From positions 1-10,429 of the forward strand of contig JAEOST010000145.1 in the NCBI GenBank assembly GCA_016840245.1: DNA of 10,429 bases, read 5' to 3'. Below, piece after piece: positions 1 to 8,743 of the stretch. Below the pieces are notes generated by a model that had not been told where the DNA came from, made no database searches, and worked only from the letters and a program-made list of their open reading frames with translations. This DNA is from Candidatus Thorarchaeota archaeon (GTDB taxonomy: Archaea > Asgardarchaeota > Thorarchaeia > Thorarchaeales > Thorarchaeaceae). The translations under genes were made by a program, and so were the position numbers. Position 1 is the first letter of the stretch. Every line of letters begins with the position of its first letter.

Positions 1-864
1 GGTAGCATAAGGCCATCCAAGAGCTGTGAGTGTTGTGCATATTGCTTGATGATTCTGAGGATTGACTGCCAAGTTTTGAGAAAATGAAACCCTATTTACA
101 CCAACATGCCCTTCAGATAGATACCATCCCATTAACGAAAAGAAGTCGTCTTCCAATAGAATGTTTATACGTTGCCATTTACCTGCTTCACGATACTGCT
201 CTGCGCTTGTGGTCATTTTCACATAAAGTGGAGCAACACTTTCAGCATCTCGACGAAGAGTTTCTTTGGCGGATTCTGAGAGATCTGTCCATCTAGCTTT
301 GTACATCTTGCTGGTTTTGGAATATCTGAATTCGTCAATGATGACCTGAATTAAATCAGATTCAACTGACTGACCTTTTCGATATGTAAAACGTTTGAAG
401 TCGTTTCTCTTCATCCCCACTGTAAGATGACTTGGATCAATATAGTCTGGAATGAAAATATGTTGGAGGGGTGTATTGGTGAAGTAGTTCGTTCCAAGAA
501 TTAGCAAATCATCGCCAATTTCTATATCTTCTGCGGAAACTTCAACCACATCATATTCAGTCTCAACTGCTTTGGGTTTCTTGCTTCTTGTTGGATTTCG
601 AATTAGTTTTGGAATCATATGATTAGGAGTACATCTAAAAACACGCCCATCATCGAGAGTGAAATCCAATGTATGAGAATCTATACTTCTTGTGAATCCA
701 ATGATTGGAGTGTAAGTAGGCTTACCGAATTGTGGAGATTCCAGTTCATTGTGAACAGAGAGAATTTCAAGACCGCTCCATGAATTTTGCAGTGACCCAA
801 TCTTACACTTCTTCACAAACCCATCTGAGGACCTCACCACAACTTCCTCATCAAAGGGAAGACA
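1..864 (-). other. Intein (N-terminal 288 residues) with LAGLIDADG homing endonuclease, inserted in DNA polymerase motif B
   Basis: The polymerase frame changes abruptly at Cys (862-864) from KVFVNA to CLPFDEEVVVRSSDG, a classic intein block A: nucleophilic Cys1 followed by LPxDE. Block B is RCTPNHMIP; the TPNH core lies at 619-630 (intein residues 79-82), and its Thr and His assist the first N-S acyl shift. About 160 residues later comes LMGWYLSEGHVG at 100-135 (from intein residue 244), a LAGLIDADG dodecapeptide (block C) whose acidic Glu would be a metal ligand of the homing endonuclease. The second dodecapeptide, blocks F and G with the terminal His-Asn, and the +1 nucleophile are off the left edge. 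Motif B is a known intein target in archaeal family-B polymerases; by eye this insertion is at, or one residue downstream of, the thermococcal KxxxN^S site. No stop or frameshift is seen in the visible part, so splicing and homing functions may be intact. Confidence 0.9.
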
Positions 865-2244
865 AGCATTAACGAACACCTTCAATGCTTTCTCAACAAC
901 AGTGTACCAGTTTCTGGTTCGTTCCTCAAGCGACTTATCCTTACTCTTAGACTTGAACCAGTCAACACGAGTGTCTCTAAAGAAACCGATAGTCTGACTG
1001 ATCATTCCAGTTCGCTTCGTACAAATCCAATGATCGGTTTCCGGGACCTTGTTATTCTCTGCAAGACGGCACTCCTCATGAGGACAGTCTACAGTCTCAT
1101 AACTGATGTTATGACGTTTCATAATGGTAGGATACAGACTGGCAAAGTCCAGCACAGTTGCGTTGAAGTGTACACCAGCTATAGGTTCAATGACAATTGC
1201 ACCTTTGAATCGTTTGTCCTTAATCATGGCCTCAGTCTGAGCATCTGATGATTTCATAGTTTCAATGTCAGCTGGTCTTGGAATCAGATTACCGCGAGAG
1301 CGATGTTCTTGCCTGAATAGGGATTGAATCCAAGATGATATTCCCAGTCGTGTCACATCTTCCATTGAGAGTCTAGAGATACGCATTAACAGAATGATGA
1401 GGCGGAGCAACAGATTGTTGTCATAGCTGGTTATTCTGAGGGTGATATTTGCATCAAGCCAACAGTAGTGAGCCAGCTCATAGTAAGGAAGGGATGAGAT
1501 ATCTGTACTAAGATCAAGCTTCCCAATGTCCAAGAGTCCTTTTGCTATAGAATCGAGATTGGTCCTCTCATAGGCTCCAGAGAGTGCGTAGAGTCGGATT
1601 GATGGATTCTTCAGGAATCGGTACAAGTCAACATGGACTCCCTGATCCAATAATGCTATCTCATTTCCACGACCCATTCGAATTGGACAGTATCGATCCA
1701 TGTCAATCTTGAGCCTCTCAGCTCGGTGATACATGTAGTTCAGGTCGAAAGCATCACCAACAAAAGTGAGGACAATTGGATATTGGTCAATGATTCTGAA
1801 TGCTTCAACGAGCATATCAGCCTCTGATTCAAAGTACACAATGTCAAGTCCAGCAGGAAAGTCTGCAGTCTTTTTACCCTCATCAATACCCTTTCGACGT
1901 AAGACGAAACATTTCTGAAAGTCCTCGTTGTCTGATAGTCCAATAGCTGTCACGGGATAAGGTGATGTATTAGCATCTGGTACTCGATTCTTAACAGGTG
2001 TATAGACTTCGATATCAACAGCTAATCTGCGAATATCAGGGACTTCTGTAAAGAAGAGTGGAGCATACTCGTTTATCACACGAGCAATACCTTTGTCTTC
2101 ACTGAATATCTCCGCAAATTGCGACATGACGTCATCATCGAGGTCCGGAGGAGATGGCTCAAGTTTACCATCAACAATCTTGTATGTCATTCCTGATACC
2201 AAGTTATTGTCGTAGGTGTAGCAATTACGATAGCGAATATTTTC
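1..2244 (-). CDS. polB: Family-B DNA polymerase, exonuclease and palm region with intein (3' end outside window)
   Basis: This is the main part of the replicative DNA polymerase, open in one frame from 2244 to base 1. Numbered from the TTG at 2883, with the amber as codon 213, the proofreading exonuclease motifs are all present: Exo I LAVDIEVYTP (D290, E292), Exo II TFVGDAFDLNY (D377) and Exo III YCWLDANIT (Y473, D477). Polymerase motif A is DFASLYPTIMKRHN (D579). It is followed by a Cys/His cluster (DCPHEEC and a later HWIC), a likely metal site of the kind seen in archaeal PolB. Motif B begins at K668 as KVFVNA and is interrupted after A673 by an intein starting with Cys. The expected continuation (Ser/Thr-Tyr-Gly) and motif C (DTD) lie beyond the left edge. 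If the amber truly ends translation, the nearest internal starts are TTG at 2200-2202 and ATG at 2188-2190; initiation there would lose the N-terminal domain but keep the exonuclease and palm. All visible catalytic residues are intact, which argues against an old pseudogene. Confidence 0.9.
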
Positions 2245-2247
2245 CTA
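2245..2247 (-). other. In-frame TAG (amber) codon inside the DNA polymerase reading frame
   Basis: On the minus strand the codons read CAT GCT TGG TAG GAA AAT ATT CGC (H A W stop E N I R), and the frame before and after the TAG is identical. A single change of TAG to GAG, AAG or CAG would restore an uninterrupted protein with a plausible HAW-x-ENIRYRNC sequence. Four other genes in this window also end in TAG, so TAG normally looks like a stop here. The codon could be a genuine nonsense mutation, a base-calling or assembly error, or a readthrough or pyrrolysine codon; the sequence alone cannot decide. Confidence 0.85.
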
Positions 2248-2883
2248 CCAAGCATGACTTACTCCATCCTGACTGAGAGAGTCGCGTATGGCTCCAGCAC
2301 GACCTCCAATAGCTAAGGGATCAGTTGCTATCACCTTGGTCATTGTCACAGGACGATCTCGGAGCAAATCAACTAAATCCACACTCTCAGCACGTACGAA
2401 ACCCCGGTTGTTTCGAATCCCAGGCATACTCTCTACTGTCTGGGCAGGAAAGTCTGTATAGCAATAGGGCTTGTGATTTGTATTGTCAAACCAGAAGTAA
2501 ATCTCCTTAGTATCAGGATTGTATAATCGTGCTACAGCCTTGTTTTGAGCACCGTCATAATCTACTGATAGTAGAATGGAGGGAGAGAGATTTTTGGGAA
2601 CTGAACGAGTGCCAACTGTTAGATCCATTGTAAGCTCCTCATCAGGTATTGATAAATCATCTTCATCATCCACTGTGAAGACTGCTGCTGAACGTTCAGT
2701 TGGTGGACTGGACTCTGAAGGTGATTCATCAGTAATTGTGTGTGAATCGGATTTAGAGTCCTCTGATTCTTTGGGTGTAGCTTGTCGCTGTTCTTTACTC
2801 TTTGAGTTTTCAGTTTCAGAACCGCCAAAGAAGTCTTCTAAGCTTGATTGACCTTCTTCATCTGAATTATCGTTCTTTCCCAA
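2245..2883 (-). CDS. polB: Family-B DNA polymerase, N-terminal segment ending at an in-frame amber codon
   Basis: This is the first 212 codons of the family-B DNA polymerase that continues in the same frame to the left edge. The start is TTG at 2883: an in-frame TGA lies three codons upstream (2890-2892), and GAGGAA sits a few bases before the TTG as a plausible ribosome binding site. Residues 12-19 read QSSLEDFF, a textbook PIP box (QxxLxxFF) for binding the PCNA sliding clamp. Residues 20 to about 80 are rich in Ser, Glu, Asp and Thr and are probably disordered. From about residue 100 the sequence becomes ordered (LSVDYDGAQNKAVARLY and onward), consistent with the polymerase N-terminal domain. 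The segment ends at HAW followed by TAG, and homologous sequence (ENIRYRNCYTYDNN) resumes immediately in the same frame. Alone this piece has neither exonuclease nor polymerase motifs, so it is best read as the front of one gene that is interrupted, misread or read through. Confidence 0.85.
   Translation of the reverse strand: MGKNDNSDEEGQSSLEDFFGGSETENSKSKEQRQATPKESEDSKSDSHTITDESPSESSPPTERSAAVFTVDDEDDLSIPDEELTMDLTVGTRSVPKNLSPSILLSVDYDGAQNKAVARLYNPDTKEIYFWFDNTNHKPYCYTDFPAQTVESMPGIRNNRGFVRAESVDLVDLLRDRPVTMTKVIATDPLAIGGRAGAIRDSLSQDGVSHAW
2827..2850 (-). other. PIP box (PCNA-binding motif) near the polymerase N-terminus
   Basis: Codons 12-19 from the TTG start spell QSSLEDFF, an exact match to the QxxLxxFF consensus by which DNA polymerases, FEN1, RFC and ligase bind the PCNA clamp. 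It is followed by about 60 acidic and serine-rich residues that look unstructured, so the motif could act as a flexible tether. The motif match is seen directly; PCNA binding is inferred. Confidence 0.7.
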
Positions 2884-3956: not shown

Positions 3957-5159
3957 GTGACGCGGCAACTTCAGGTGCTATCATTGAGCGGACGTAGAAA
4001 GAAGATTTTCTTTGACCAGACACAGAACGAACGTGGAAAGATCGAATCAACCTATTCGGATTTAGCTAGACTATTGAAGGATAACGATTACGATGTCGAG
4101 GCCTACACGGAATTTATGATTTTGGACAAGAAGATAGCAGAAGGGGCAGTGATTGTCTTTGGGTGTCCAAATAGCTCGAAGCTCAGGAATCCAGAGATTG
4201 AAACTCTCAAAAAATATGTGAAAAGTGGTGGAAGTCTCATGTTGCTGTCCCTCTCAGGAGGGGATAAGGGTCTAATGAACAACATGAGCAAGCTCTCAGA
4301 AATCTTCGGAATCACGTTTGAGAACACTGCAGTCAAGGATGATCGGAATAACTCAGGGATTCCGACAATGCCCATCATCAAGGACCTAGTCCCACATTTC
4401 ATAACAAAAGACGTGAAGGAAGTATTATACCCCTCAGGATGTACACTCAGGGTTTCGGGTAAAGCAACAATTCTTGCAACCACTTCAACTATGGCAGACC
4501 CACCAGGTCAACCAATCATCGCATTGGCTGAATACGGAAAAGGCCGTGTCATGTGTATTGGTAGTTATGAGATATTCAGGAAAGGTGGAGGACTAGCCAA
4601 CAAGGCGAACAAAGTCTTTGCAGTGAATGCGTTCACTTGGTTAAGTGGAGATGACAGATCCTTTGAATCGTCTGAATCTACAGTAACTGAGGAGAAAACA
4701 GCACCGAAAGAAAGTACAACGGCGGATCCAGTTATGGCACAGGAGATGGAAAACACACTTCGTCGTCTCGTAAATGCAGTCTTTGATCTGCAGAAGGATA
4801 TCTCAAAGGTCCGAGAGAAAGTTGACAGTGTGGAGAAGAATATCGAGAGTCTCAGAGACCAGTTCCAAGACTTTGCAGAAAAGACTCAGGATCAGCTAGG
4901 CATAATGATACCATCAAAGCAGTTTCTGACCGAGGAAGAGAATCAAGCAGCCGAGATTGGGGCCGATATCAAGGCACTTGAGAAAGAGATACGTTCAGTT
5001 GAGCAGCTCCGTGAACATATCGAGCAACGCCATTCATCCGGAGTCATGCCCAAGGAGTCCTATACGGAACAGGCAGAGAAACTTGATTCTAGAATAAAGA
5101 GTCTTGAGAAGAAGCTAAAGAAGAAACTGAAAGAGATGGATGCCCTCTCAGAGATCTGA
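3957..5159 (+). CDS. GIFT-like (IFT52/DUF4350-type) domain protein with C-terminal coiled coil
   Basis: This is a 400-residue, probably cytosolic protein with no signal peptide or membrane segment. Residues 1 to about 230 resemble a GIFT/DUF4350-type Rossmann-like fold. Visible are FDQTQNERGKI at 19-29, a helix (TYSDLARLLKDNDYDVEAY), a strand AVIVFGCP at 64-71, EIETLKKYVKSGGSLMLLS at 80-98, and a late AEYGKGRVMCIGSYEIF at 191-207. Such domains occur in bacterial gliding-associated proteins and in eukaryotic IFT52, where they bind partners or ligands non-catalytically. Residues 231-260 are a Ser/Thr/Glu-rich linker. Residues 263-312 and about 335-395 have heptad-like patterns of coiled coil, ending in a SHOCT-like stretch (SGVMPKESYTEQAEKL) and a lysine-rich helix. 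The start is GTG at 3957; no Shine-Dalgarno site is seen. The gene ends in TGA, 14 bp from the convergent neighbour. The fold call rests on motif resemblance, and the cellular role is unknown. Confidence 0.75.
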   Translation: MTRQLQVLSLSGRRKKIFFDQTQNERGKIESTYSDLARLLKDNDYDVEAYTEFMILDKKIAEGAVIVFGCPNSSKLRNPEIETLKKYVKSGGSLMLLSLSGGDKGLMNNMSKLSEIFGITFENTAVKDDRNNSGIPTMPIIKDLVPHFITKDVKEVLYPSGCTLRVSGKATILATTSTMADPPGQPIIALAEYGKGRVMCIGSYEIFRKGGGLANKANKVFAVNAFTWLSGDDRSFESSESTVTEEKTAPKESTTADPVMAQEMENTLRRLVNAVFDLQKDISKVREKVDSVEKNIESLRDQFQDFAEKTQDQLGIMIPSKQFLTEEENQAAEIGADIKALEKEIRSVEQLREHIEQRHSSGVMPKESYTEQAEKLDSRIKSLEKKLKKKLKEMDALSEI

Positions 5160-5173: not shown

Positions 5174-6652
5174 CTATCCAACTATATCTTCGATAAATCC
5201 GACTAACTCATTTGCTCCATATTTGAGTGCCCGATATATCTCTCCAAAATATCGGTGGAATGGATAGCTGATTGTAATCAATACCAAGAATAAGAAGTAG
5301 ACCGTTCTATGGGGAAACAGTAGAAGAATGGTCAACACAAAGGGGAGAATAAGCATCGGAATAGAGACGCGAATAGAGGTTGCGTCCTTTGAACACATAC
5401 TGGAAACAGCCAAAATAGAGAGAAAGGGAATGAGAAGAACCAGATAATATTTGTATATCCCTCGCGGGCTCCAGAGATGAAGCCACAGTACTAGCATTAG
5501 TGTCAGAAAGAATATCCTTCGCCAATAACCTCTAATGTTGCTATCGTCTTTTACTTCCAGTAACATCAGTGCTGTGATGGGTAGAATTCCAATCATAAGT
5601 CCAATAGATGAGAATGATAGGACATTGAAGATCTCCACGACCCACGCGGGTGCTCCAAAGGATATGAAGAGGTGTGCTATTACTATTGGATGGCTTGCCT
5701 TTGGTAGAGCTGAAAGGTCTGTAAGATAGGTACCTCCTGCACGTTGGAGGATTTGGTAGAAGTAGTTTAGGGGATCAAGGATGTATGGTAAGGATAGTGT
5801 AACGAAGTAGACGATCGCAATTATTGCAGTCTTACCGAAACCGACCAAGTCTACTGCATCGCTTAGCAAAGTCTTTGACTCTGTATCTTCCAACTGCTCA
5901 TATTCATCATCTGTATGGCCATTCTCATTTCTTATTCGAACTGCACGTTTGACCACAAATGCTAGCACCGGTATGCCTAGGAATATAGCAGTTTGTTTGA
6001 ATAGAACGGATGTGACCATTGCTAAGACTCCAGCAGTGCGGTGTCCCTTCATCATCAAATAGAATGACAACATTGCGAAGAAGACGAAAGGAGAGGGATT
6101 CAACCACAAGAATGTAACATGATACAGAACAAGAGGGTTCAGTAGGTATGTTGCTGCGGCAACCTCTCCTACCCGTTTGTTATCAGATAGGAATCGAGCA
6201 ATTCCATAGACAGGAAGGGCTGTCATGTAACCAAAGATGCACAAAACCAGACCAATACCAAATGGCTGTATTGGGAGGATTCGTCCAAGAGCACAGATAT
6301 AGACATACAATGGAGGAAAGAAGTAGGGTGTATTGTAGGTTCCACGCTCTATCACAAGTCGGTCAAATGATTCTGTATAGGGTACATGCCCTGAGAGAAA
6401 TTGATCGGCCCATGATATGTAGTAGTAATCGTGGTCGACGTATCCCTCGAAGTACACATTGATAGCTGAGCCAAAGAATGGAAGTTCACCATTACCATTC
6501 CACATTCCGCGATAGGGGCGTATCCTATCAGCAACAAAGTCAATTGCAGCCATGTTATAGATAAATGCCCAGACTATCACGCCAATCACTAGGACGAGTA
6601 TTAGGACGCGGTACTCAGAGAACCAACTGCGAAGTTTCAACTGAGCACCCAT
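5174..6652 (-). CDS. Multi-pass membrane protein, probable GT-C-fold glycosyltransferase (short paralogue)
   Basis: This 492-residue integral membrane protein resembles GT-C superfamily enzymes that transfer sugars from polyprenyl-phosphate donors on the outer face of the membrane. Residues 15-36 form the first membrane segment. The first outer loop carries YFEGYVDHDYYYISWADQF (67-85) with acidic E69, D73 and D75 where GT-C enzymes keep their catalytic Asp. It continues with the family-like LSGHVPY and YFFPPLYVYI at 110-119. Further hydrophobic helices follow at about 130-150, 165-180, 185-202, 207-235, 275-290, 322-345, 350-370 and several to the C-terminus. A charged loop (about 236-262, RNENGHTDDEYEQLED) interrupts them. 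A late SPRGIYKYY motif is shared with the neighbour. ATG at 6652 follows the paralogous upstream gene by 18 bp, so the two are probably co-transcribed. It ends in TAG. Donor, acceptor and even transferase activity are inferred from topology and loop motifs. Confidence 0.75.
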   Translation of the reverse strand: MGAQLKLRSWFSEYRVLILVLVIGVIVWAFIYNMAAIDFVADRIRPYRGMWNGNGELPFFGSAINVYFEGYVDHDYYYISWADQFLSGHVPYTESFDRLVIERGTYNTPYFFPPLYVYICALGRILPIQPFGIGLVLCIFGYMTALPVYGIARFLSDNKRVGEVAAATYLLNPLVLYHVTFLWLNPSPFVFFAMLSFYLMMKGHRTAGVLAMVTSVLFKQTAIFLGIPVLAFVVKRAVRIRNENGHTDDEYEQLEDTESKTLLSDAVDLVGFGKTAIIAIVYFVTLSLPYILDPLNYFYQILQRAGGTYLTDLSALPKASHPIVIAHLFISFGAPAWVVEIFNVLSFSSIGLMIGILPITALMLLEVKDDSNIRGYWRRIFFLTLMLVLWLHLWSPRGIYKYYLVLLIPFLSILAVSSMCSKDATSIRVSIPMLILPFVLTILLLFPHRTVYFLFLVLITISYPFHRYFGEIYRALKYGANELVGFIEDIVG

Positions 6653-6670: not shown

Positions 6671-8743
6671 CTAAGAATCGGCGATGCTCTGATAAGATGC
6701 TTCCTCATAAGTTATGGGCTCATCAGTGATGTAGTGGTGAATTTTAAATCGCATACCCCGAAACCGCGATGTGATGGGATGGAAGGCAGGTGCAACAACT
6801 CCTCTCACCATCCGGAAGGGACCTTTCATATACCACCACATTGTGCCCATCTGGGTAGCAATTAGATATCCTATGAGAATTAAGATGATACCAAAGAAGT
6901 AGACATTCCTAGATGGTAGTAGAATCATACTCATCATCACAAAGGGCATCCATATCATTGATGCAGAGAATGGAACATTGTCAGTCTTGCTAGTGACCAT
7001 TCTGGATGATGCAAATATTGAGAAGAATGGGGCAAAGATTACGAAGTAGTACTTGTAGACACCACGAGGCCCCATGAGATGTACCCAGAACATCATTATC
7101 ATAGCCAGAAAGAGGAGTCGGCGGAAGTAGTAGACCTTGTTATCCCCTCGCTTCACTTCAAGTATCATTAGACCAGATATCACGATTACACCTATCCAAA
7201 GTAGGAATCCTTGGTATACAAGGTCGTCCAAGAACTCAGCAAGCAAAGGCAAGTCTAATACAATAGGAAGCACTTGAAATCGCATTGGACTTCCATAACC
7301 TGGTGGTATTGTAAACGAGTCCAACGGAAAACCGCCAGCAGCCATCATGATATTTCTAAGCATGGTGTTAGGATTTGCAAGGTAGAATGGAAGAAGGATA
7401 GCTCCAGCGAACACAAGCACAACGAGCACACTCAATAGAAATGCTCGAAAATCGATTAAAGGACCTTTTAGTCCGCTAGGAGTCTTCTTAGAAGGTCCTG
7501 AAATTCTGGGGATAACTCCTGGATTGAATCGCATCAGAAAATAGATGCTGAGTATTATTGGCCACCACAGAATTTGGAAGGCATTGAGTAAGGGGAATGT
7601 GTAAGCAATCATGAAGACAACAAGGGACATCGTCAAACCAAGACTGAGGATAAAAAGTGTAAACAGGAAGGACTTAACGAACGTGCTACGATCCAGATTC
7701 TTCTTCTGAGCATTTCGTGTGCAGTCAGCAAGGAAGATCGCATTCAGACCCAAGTATGTCATCACGAGTAGAATACCCATAAAGACTAGCATCAAGGAGG
7801 GGAAGACAATATTGAGCACGAGAAGAACTGACGCGCTAATTGCGGCTACTGCAAAGATACCTAGGAAGAAGGTCACAGACTCAGGTGAGTTTCTCAACCA
7901 GTCTATTATTCCATCCTTCTCCTTCGGCTCCGGTTCAGGTGGATCAGGTGAATCTGATGGTTCGGTAGGCTCTGGTTCACTCTGGCCATCAGCTGGATAA
8001 CGCCATCTTAGTAGCAAGTATACCACCAGGGGAATCCCTAAGAACCAGGCTATCTGTTTGAATAACGCGGCGACTACAATGAGTAGTGTCCCAGCTTGAC
8101 GCCGCCCCCGTATGAGCATATAGAAACCAGAGAAGAAGAAGAACACCACAGGAGCCGTATTGAGCCAGATCCATGCGATGTGATAGATTGGACTAGGACT
8201 TAGTATGTATGTGAGAGCAGCAGCTTCTGCAACACGACGGTTATTCGAGAGCTCATGGGCAATACCATATGTGGGAAAGATTGTGATGAATCCAAATATT
8301 GTGAGTAATAACCCAATCCCAGTGTTTTCAGGTACAAAGGGATTTAGAGCTATTCCAGCTGCGTCAAGAACAGCATAGAGAGGAGGAAAGATGTAGGCAC
8401 CATTAGTATTGGTGATACCATCCATAACAAGAACACCAAATGGATCGGGTCTGGGTGAATATGGCCATGTCCCATTTAGGAACTTATGACCCCAATGTAC
8501 ATAGAAGAATGAGTAGTCTGAATATCCCTCTAATTGAATTTGTACTGTCTGATTGAAAATCGTGTATTCGCCATTTCCCACCCATACAGCTCGTGTGTTC
8601 CAATTGGGCGTGTCTAGATATTCATATACAGCTTGGTTGAACACAATAAACCAAACAAAGAATCCGATAACAATTATGGCTATGAATACGGAGTAATTGA
8701 CAAGGAAACGTACGATGCGTTTCTCCAATTTACCGGGAGCCAT
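6671..8743 (-). CDS. Multi-pass membrane protein, probable GT-C-fold glycosyltransferase (long paralogue with insertion)
   Basis: This 690-residue paralogue of the downstream neighbour shares GNGE...EGY.D in the first outer loop (E72, D76), FLNGTWPY, YIFPPLYAVL at 117-126, the TYGIA and LFKQ..FLGIP helices, and a late GPRGVYKYYF. The second Asp of the neighbour's DHD is Ser here (DYS), so the two may differ in activity or substrate. After the helix ending near residue 247 comes a Pro/Glu-rich linker (about 251-275), then an extra block to about residue 430. That block holds roughly four added membrane segments (about 291-315, 317-337, 357-382, 388-404) absent from the short paralogue, after which similarity resumes (FRAFLLSVLVVLVFAGAILLPFYL). 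ATG at 8743 is preceded by GGAAATGG as a weak ribosome site. CTTAAT about 26-31 bp upstream could be a TATA element. The Rad50-like gene ends 59 bp upstream on the same strand. The gene stops at TAG, with an in-frame TGA three sense codons later. Confidence 0.75.
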   Translation of the reverse strand: MAPGKLEKRIVRFLVNYSVFIAIIVIGFFVWFIVFNQAVYEYLDTPNWNTRAVWVGNGEYTIFNQTVQIQLEGYSDYSFFYVHWGHKFLNGTWPYSPRPDPFGVLVMDGITNTNGAYIFPPLYAVLDAAGIALNPFVPENTGIGLLLTIFGFITIFPTYGIAHELSNNRRVAEAAALTYILSPSPIYHIAWIWLNTAPVVFFFFSGFYMLIRGRRQAGTLLIVVAALFKQIAWFLGIPLVVYLLLRWRYPADGQSEPEPTEPSDSPDPPEPEPKEKDGIIDWLRNSPESVTFFLGIFAVAAISASVLLVLNIVFPSLMLVFMGILLVMTYLGLNAIFLADCTRNAQKKNLDRSTFVKSFLFTLFILSLGLTMSLVVFMIAYTFPLLNAFQILWWPIILSIYFLMRFNPGVIPRISGPSKKTPSGLKGPLIDFRAFLLSVLVVLVFAGAILLPFYLANPNTMLRNIMMAAGGFPLDSFTIPPGYGSPMRFQVLPIVLDLPLLAEFLDDLVYQGFLLWIGVIVISGLMILEVKRGDNKVYYFRRLLFLAMIMMFWVHLMGPRGVYKYYFVIFAPFFSIFASSRMVTSKTDNVPFSASMIWMPFVMMSMILLPSRNVYFFGIILILIGYLIATQMGTMWWYMKGPFRMVRGVVAPAFHPITSRFRGMRFKIHHYITDEPITYEEASYQSIADS

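Follow-up and report, generated by a model that had tools for sequence, protein, structure and literature searches.

An in-frame amber codon and an adjoining altered codon at invariant positions of a Thorarchaeota PolB1 gene

The window (the whole stretch of DNA analysed here, 10,429 nucleotides of the Candidatus Thorarchaeota contig JAEOST010000145.1) carries at one edge a minus-strand gene that, as judged by its sequence, is a DNA polymerase of the Thorarchaeota PolB1 type. Translation from a TTG at position 2883 to base 1 gave a frame of 961 codons with one stop only, a TAG at 2245-2247 that corresponds to codon 213; the initial annotation was therefore correct in describing this TAG as the sole stop, with the same frame on either side. 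The start agrees with that of the nearest long relative (P0002), which begins MGKND where the window has TTG followed by GKND. The features of the frame are as follows.

2248..2883, minus strand: upstream part of PolB1, codons 1-212, with a TTG start; database protein P0122, on a contig of 10,429 bases.
2245..2247, minus strand: the TAG, in frame at codon 213 of PolB1; all 119 relatives that cover the codon have Glu.
2242..2244, minus strand: codon 214, GAA (Glu), again unlike the invariant residue, which is Ala in all 119 covering relatives.
2200..2202, minus strand: TTG, codon 228, a possible internal start; by eye, no Shine-Dalgarno-like sequence upstream.
2188..2190, minus strand: ATG, codon 232, a possible internal start; by eye, a purine run lies immediately before the ATG, nearer than a ribosome site usually would.
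865..2241, minus strand: downstream part of PolB1, codons 215-673, with the rest of the N-terminal domain, the exonuclease domain and the start of the polymerase domain with motif A.
1..864, minus strand: N-terminal part of a putative intein, starting with Cys after ...KVFVNA and cut by the contig edge; assigned by alignment, with weak profile matches below cut-off.

The closest of the listed proteins carry Thorarchaeota names (P0002, 88% identity; P0054, 97% over the part covered). N-terminal, exonuclease and early polymerase sequence is shared with archaeal PolB1 (DNA-directed DNA polymerase I, PRK05761 / NF004417), and the solved relative 1s5j (Sulfolobus PolB1) matched the window protein with an E value of 2.7e-128. 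Unlike 1s5j and NF004417, the window has the TAG and an Ala-to-Glu change at codons 213-214 and an intein after residue 673. The NF004417 profile scored 638.5 bits (best stretch 93-674) against a whole-protein cut-off of 780, a shortfall attributed to the C-terminal part lying outside the window; a complete intein-bearing relative (P0005) scored 938.8 bits. Only residues 1-673 of the polymerase are in the window, and residues 674-961 align with relatives as an intein, a feature that the earlier reading missed. The contig stops within the intein, which puts the remaining polymerase sequence, including the later catalytic motifs, outside the window; the initial description of the gene as otherwise intact can thus extend to residues 1-673 only. 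Of the intein flanks, the N-terminal Cys and a precise insertion point, vacant in relatives that lack the intein, are seen in the window, and the C-terminal splice site is off the contig; the window piece matched TIGR01445 weakly and below cut-off (E = 0.081). In P0005 the C-terminal splice site (His-Asn-Ser) is seen and TIGR01443 is above cut-off. P0054, 97% identical to the window where the two overlap, lacks the intein, which P0002, P0005 (complete) and others carry; its presence or absence in PolB1 thus varies among close relatives. Downstream of the TAG, the stretches DIE (290-292), FVGDAFDLNY (374-383), YCWLD (473-477) and DFASLYP (579-585), which we take to be exonuclease motifs I-III and motif A, fall at most of their positions on invariant columns of an alignment with 120 relatives, in keeping with the original statement that all four motifs are intact.

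Beyond the polymerase, the window holds PCC, HIT and Rad50 genes, an IFT52-like gene and two membrane protein genes, and none of these other genes has an internal stop. The product of 3957-5159 (plus strand) has an IFT52 GIFT domain (E = 1.1e-18), named after a eukaryotic protein and found here in an Asgard contig, with weak SMC-like matches in its C-terminal part. The minus-strand genes at 5174-6652 and 6671-8743 encode two membrane proteins that are tandem paralogues of each other (42% over 233 residues), with no Pfam match at E 0.001, and in several genomes of the class their relatives sit on the PolB1 contig.

The TAG had been described as a single lesion, a view that overlooked the adjoining codon 214. 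In a protein alignment of the window with the best 120 of 273 passing homologues, codons 213-214 are Glu-Ala in all 119 relatives that cover them (P0054 starts later). The DNA of 30 class loci, one per genome from 47 genomes, gave Glu-Ala in 30 of 30; 29 of them matched a script's pattern of GAG or GAA and then GCN, and the one that escaped the pattern (L022) translates as Trp-Glu-Ala. The inspection of codon 213 in relatives that had been proposed at the outset thus returned Glu throughout (119/119 proteins, 30/30 loci), and Sulfolobus PolB1 1s5j likewise has Glu-Ala at the aligned position. Across the 195 columns with at least 98% agreement among the other rows, the window departs at two, with a stop at 213 and Glu in place of Ala at 214. 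For the other 120 rows the mean number of departures at such columns is 0.97 (maximum 9), with an adjacent pair in one row, and the chance that two random picks among 195 columns are adjacent is 0.005.

Outside codons 213-214, PolB1 carries, by counts of lineage-specific changes, no sign of relaxed evolution or decay. Window-specific to P0002-specific changes after the stop numbered 9:13, 10:10 and 7:11 with three outgroups, and those before it (90-212) numbered 3:9, 3:7 and 4:7. The absence of any excess relative to P0002 upholds the suggestion that selection still acts or that the change is very recent. The Rad50 fragment of the window has no departures at 105 columns of 98% agreement; at 126 columns of 95% it has three, each also found in P0125, a complete Rad50 protein from a 10,156-base contig. 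P0125 shares 534 of 541 residues (99%) with the window, so a close strain has already been assembled; the seven differences are all at variable positions. Since the two departures adjoin, decay is absent elsewhere in the gene and Rad50 is clean, the lesion is local and either recent or artificial. P0002 (PolB1) and P0127 (Rad50) are each on a contig of 8,944 bases, presumably the same one given the equal size and gene order, and the same span in the window measures 8,943 bases; the sister is therefore colinear and uninterrupted at the TAG site.

Four readings of the TAG were weighed, with weights that are judgements and not computed values and with the remainder allocated to none. The order initially proposed, with error first, followed by a recent nonsense mutation, re-initiation and finally readthrough or pyrrolysine, survived testing overall. 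We give about an even chance to a local artefact, in which two wrong bases in an intact PolB1 gene would account for both TAG and Glu. Two wrong bases a few positions apart, due to errors in reads or to poor coverage in this part of the assembly, may have turned the adjacent invariant codons 213-214 into a stop and Glu; in the living cell the gene would then most likely read through normally to a full-length PolB1, with the intein spliced out. The sequence comparisons lead us to infer, by a small margin, wrong bases and not mutated ones: the departures fall at exactly 213 and 214 of 195 columns, constraint is normal, Glu-Ala is universal in covering relatives and the sister is uninterrupted. 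Against an artefact, the contig seems accurately sequenced elsewhere (the clean Rad50 and the other genes free of internal stops), and one multinucleotide mutation could yield both adjacent changes. The main loose end is P0122, the truncated 212-residue ORF, which belongs to a database cluster with two member sequences. If the cluster representative is the longest sequence, as we assume, the second member would either be fragmentary or come from a sister strain that carries this stop too; were it to end at the same place, the stop would be real, and in this respect the cluster tells against an artefact. A scan of a viral collection gave no confirmed relative of the 212-residue ORF.

A local two-base error seems somewhat likelier than the strongest alternative, a real and very recent null allele of PolB1, which we regard as a credible but more tentative reading. 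A multinucleotide mutation, or two hits in quick succession, would have inactivated the gene, and PolD and a second PolB would carry out replication. The accuracy of the contig elsewhere and the two members of the P0122 cluster are points in its favor, as is the strain variation evident from P0125. The lack of relaxation is compatible with such an event if it was recent, and for the same reason a real event would have to be recent. The idea of a second polymerase, part of the original proposal, found support in relatives: the PolD large subunit (PF03833) was above cut-off in 44 of 47 class genomes and a second PolB match, weak (23-36% identity over short stretches), occurred in 42 of 47, and a null PolB1 allele could survive because both are common in the class. 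However, a PolB1-type match was found in 45 of 47 class genomes, all but G008 and G026 (a few matches are partial or divided between contigs), with no internal stop among the matches listed, and hits in two adjacent invariant codons require clustered mutation. A null PolB1 would probably be short-lived, to judge from the lack of broken copies among the relatives. Two class genomes carry more than one PolB1-type match, G020 with two on separate contigs (63% and 65%) and G005 with two partial ones, in each case a paralogue or contamination. A further version, in which the amber is real and common to a sister strain (the second P0122 member), is improbable; in a Thorarchaeota population PolB1 would then be made through low-level UAG readthrough, or would just be dispensed with, PolD being the main replicative enzyme.

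Decoding of UAG, whether by pyrrolysine, by a suppressor tRNA or by programmed readthrough, would give a full-length polymerase and would fit the persistence of constraint past the stop. A 2021 study (PMC9723677) reports tRNApyl-like remnants in some Thorarchaeia and in Lokiarchaeia, and a full Pyl system, within the Asgard classes that it covered, in Sifarchaeia only. Another study (PMC7918605) argues that bacterial genes widely contain in-frame stops with low dN/dS. The window gene resembles pyrrolysine-decoded genes such as MtbB in Sifarchaeia (PMC9723677) in having an in-frame UAG beyond which the frame continues, but it is no methyltransferase, relatives have no UAG at the site, TAG is a frequent terminator and class relatives lack PylS above cut-off. 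It likewise resembles the prokaryotic in-frame stops under purifying selection described in PMC7918605 in having a single stop in a gene without decay, and differs from them in that its stop is found in one contig only and adjoins a second disruptive change. Among the publications retrieved, no title pointed to a stop inside an archaeal polymerase gene.

TAG terminates four of the six other genes of the window, namely PCC, both membrane protein genes and Rad50, and TGA terminates the remaining two, HIT and the IFT52-like gene; the TAG of Rad50 lies in the same alignment column as the ends of 84 of 120 relatives. Mechanically called ORFs of at least 200 codons at 29 class loci ended in TGA (31), TAG (18) and TAA (14), and those of at least 150 codons in a 400-kb sample of a relative, G035 (n = 300, also mechanical), in TAG (142), TGA (131) and TAA (27). 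TAG is an ordinary terminator here. PylS was above cut-off in none of the 47 class genomes, the relatives of the window, in contrast to 2 of 227 phylum genomes, both with tRNA-Pyl nearby; 1 of 14 control genomes was also positive. Matches at E <= 0.001 were present in 21 of 47 class and 182 of 227 phylum genomes, all but two of them far below cut-off.

No tRNA with a CUA anticodon and no Rfam match up to E 1 was found in the window. In class relatives, ARAGORN called no CUA tRNA at the checked places, a subset of those returned by BLAST, pattern and covariance-model searches. The pattern search for tRNA-Pyl was no better overall than its reversed control and cannot match the anticodon loop of the tRNA-Pyl shown; ARAGORN was applied to the 30 of its places that became loci, part of all places. 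The Rfam tRNA model RF00005 misses the ARAGORN-called tRNA-Pyl of two loci (L044 and L045), and because of this blindness its screen of G035 and G011, in which 7 of 64 loci had no ARAGORN call, bears on ordinary tRNAs only. A further search model (R1) built from two near-identical sequences listed 56 places, of which 38 distinct ones were passed to ARAGORN; several of these gave no call and resemble tRNA-Glu in sequence. A match of 59 bases that recurred with the tRNA-Pyl model proved to be tRNA-Glu and was rejected as a candidate. As a separate observation, 11 of 14 printed tRNA-Glu(CTC) sequences of class genomes (L212, L213, L215-L219, L222, L223, L225 and L227; bases ~50-160) have an apparent intron-like insert in the D arm, with a partial gctccgg...ctgg copy upstream, and three (L214, L221 and L228) have no insert.

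The pyrrolysine option raised in the initial annotation fares poorly on PylS and on terminator usage, and decoding of UAG in any form is very unlikely: a stop occurs at the site in 0 of 119 covering relatives, no CTA anticodon was among the tRNAs called in class relatives, and the adjoining Ala-to-Glu change would be left unexplained.

Re-initiation shortly after the stop was the remaining proposal. Start codons do exist there, at TTG 2202-2200 and ATG 2190-2188 (given at first as 2200 and 2188); by eye, the printed bases show no Shine-Dalgarno-like sequence at the usual spacing before codon 228 or 232. A structure model of the read-through protein (673 residues, 50 sequences, codon 213 as Glu; mean pLDDT 75.7, pTM 0.75) has pLDDT of 82-91 in blocks around the stop and below 50 at residues 1-87 and 545-599. 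It places the stop in a loop of the N-terminal domain, between a strand at residues 211-212 and a helix at 218-226, and by this model a product started at codon 228 or 232 would be without all strands of 99-186. Split archaeal PolB genes occur in Methanothermobacter. The truncated PolB1 N-termini P0123 and P0124 were tried as precedents and rejected, as they run past codon 213 with Trp-Glu-Ala and end elsewhere. A split polymerase whose two pieces cooperate after restart is thus the least probable of the four readings, given a modelled break inside a domain (strands 99-186 before it, 233-243 after) and not between domains, fragments in relatives that continue past the site, and restart codons that lack a ribosome-site-like sequence at the usual distance.

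As the evidence stands, the locus is mainly a warning against inferring recoding from one stop in one metagenome contig, and the clustering of departures at otherwise invariant columns offers a quick filter for lone stops in such contigs. A TAG that proved real and fixed would amount to a natural knockout and show that an Asgard lineage can do without PolB1; sense decoding of UAG in a polymerase would be its less likely meaning.
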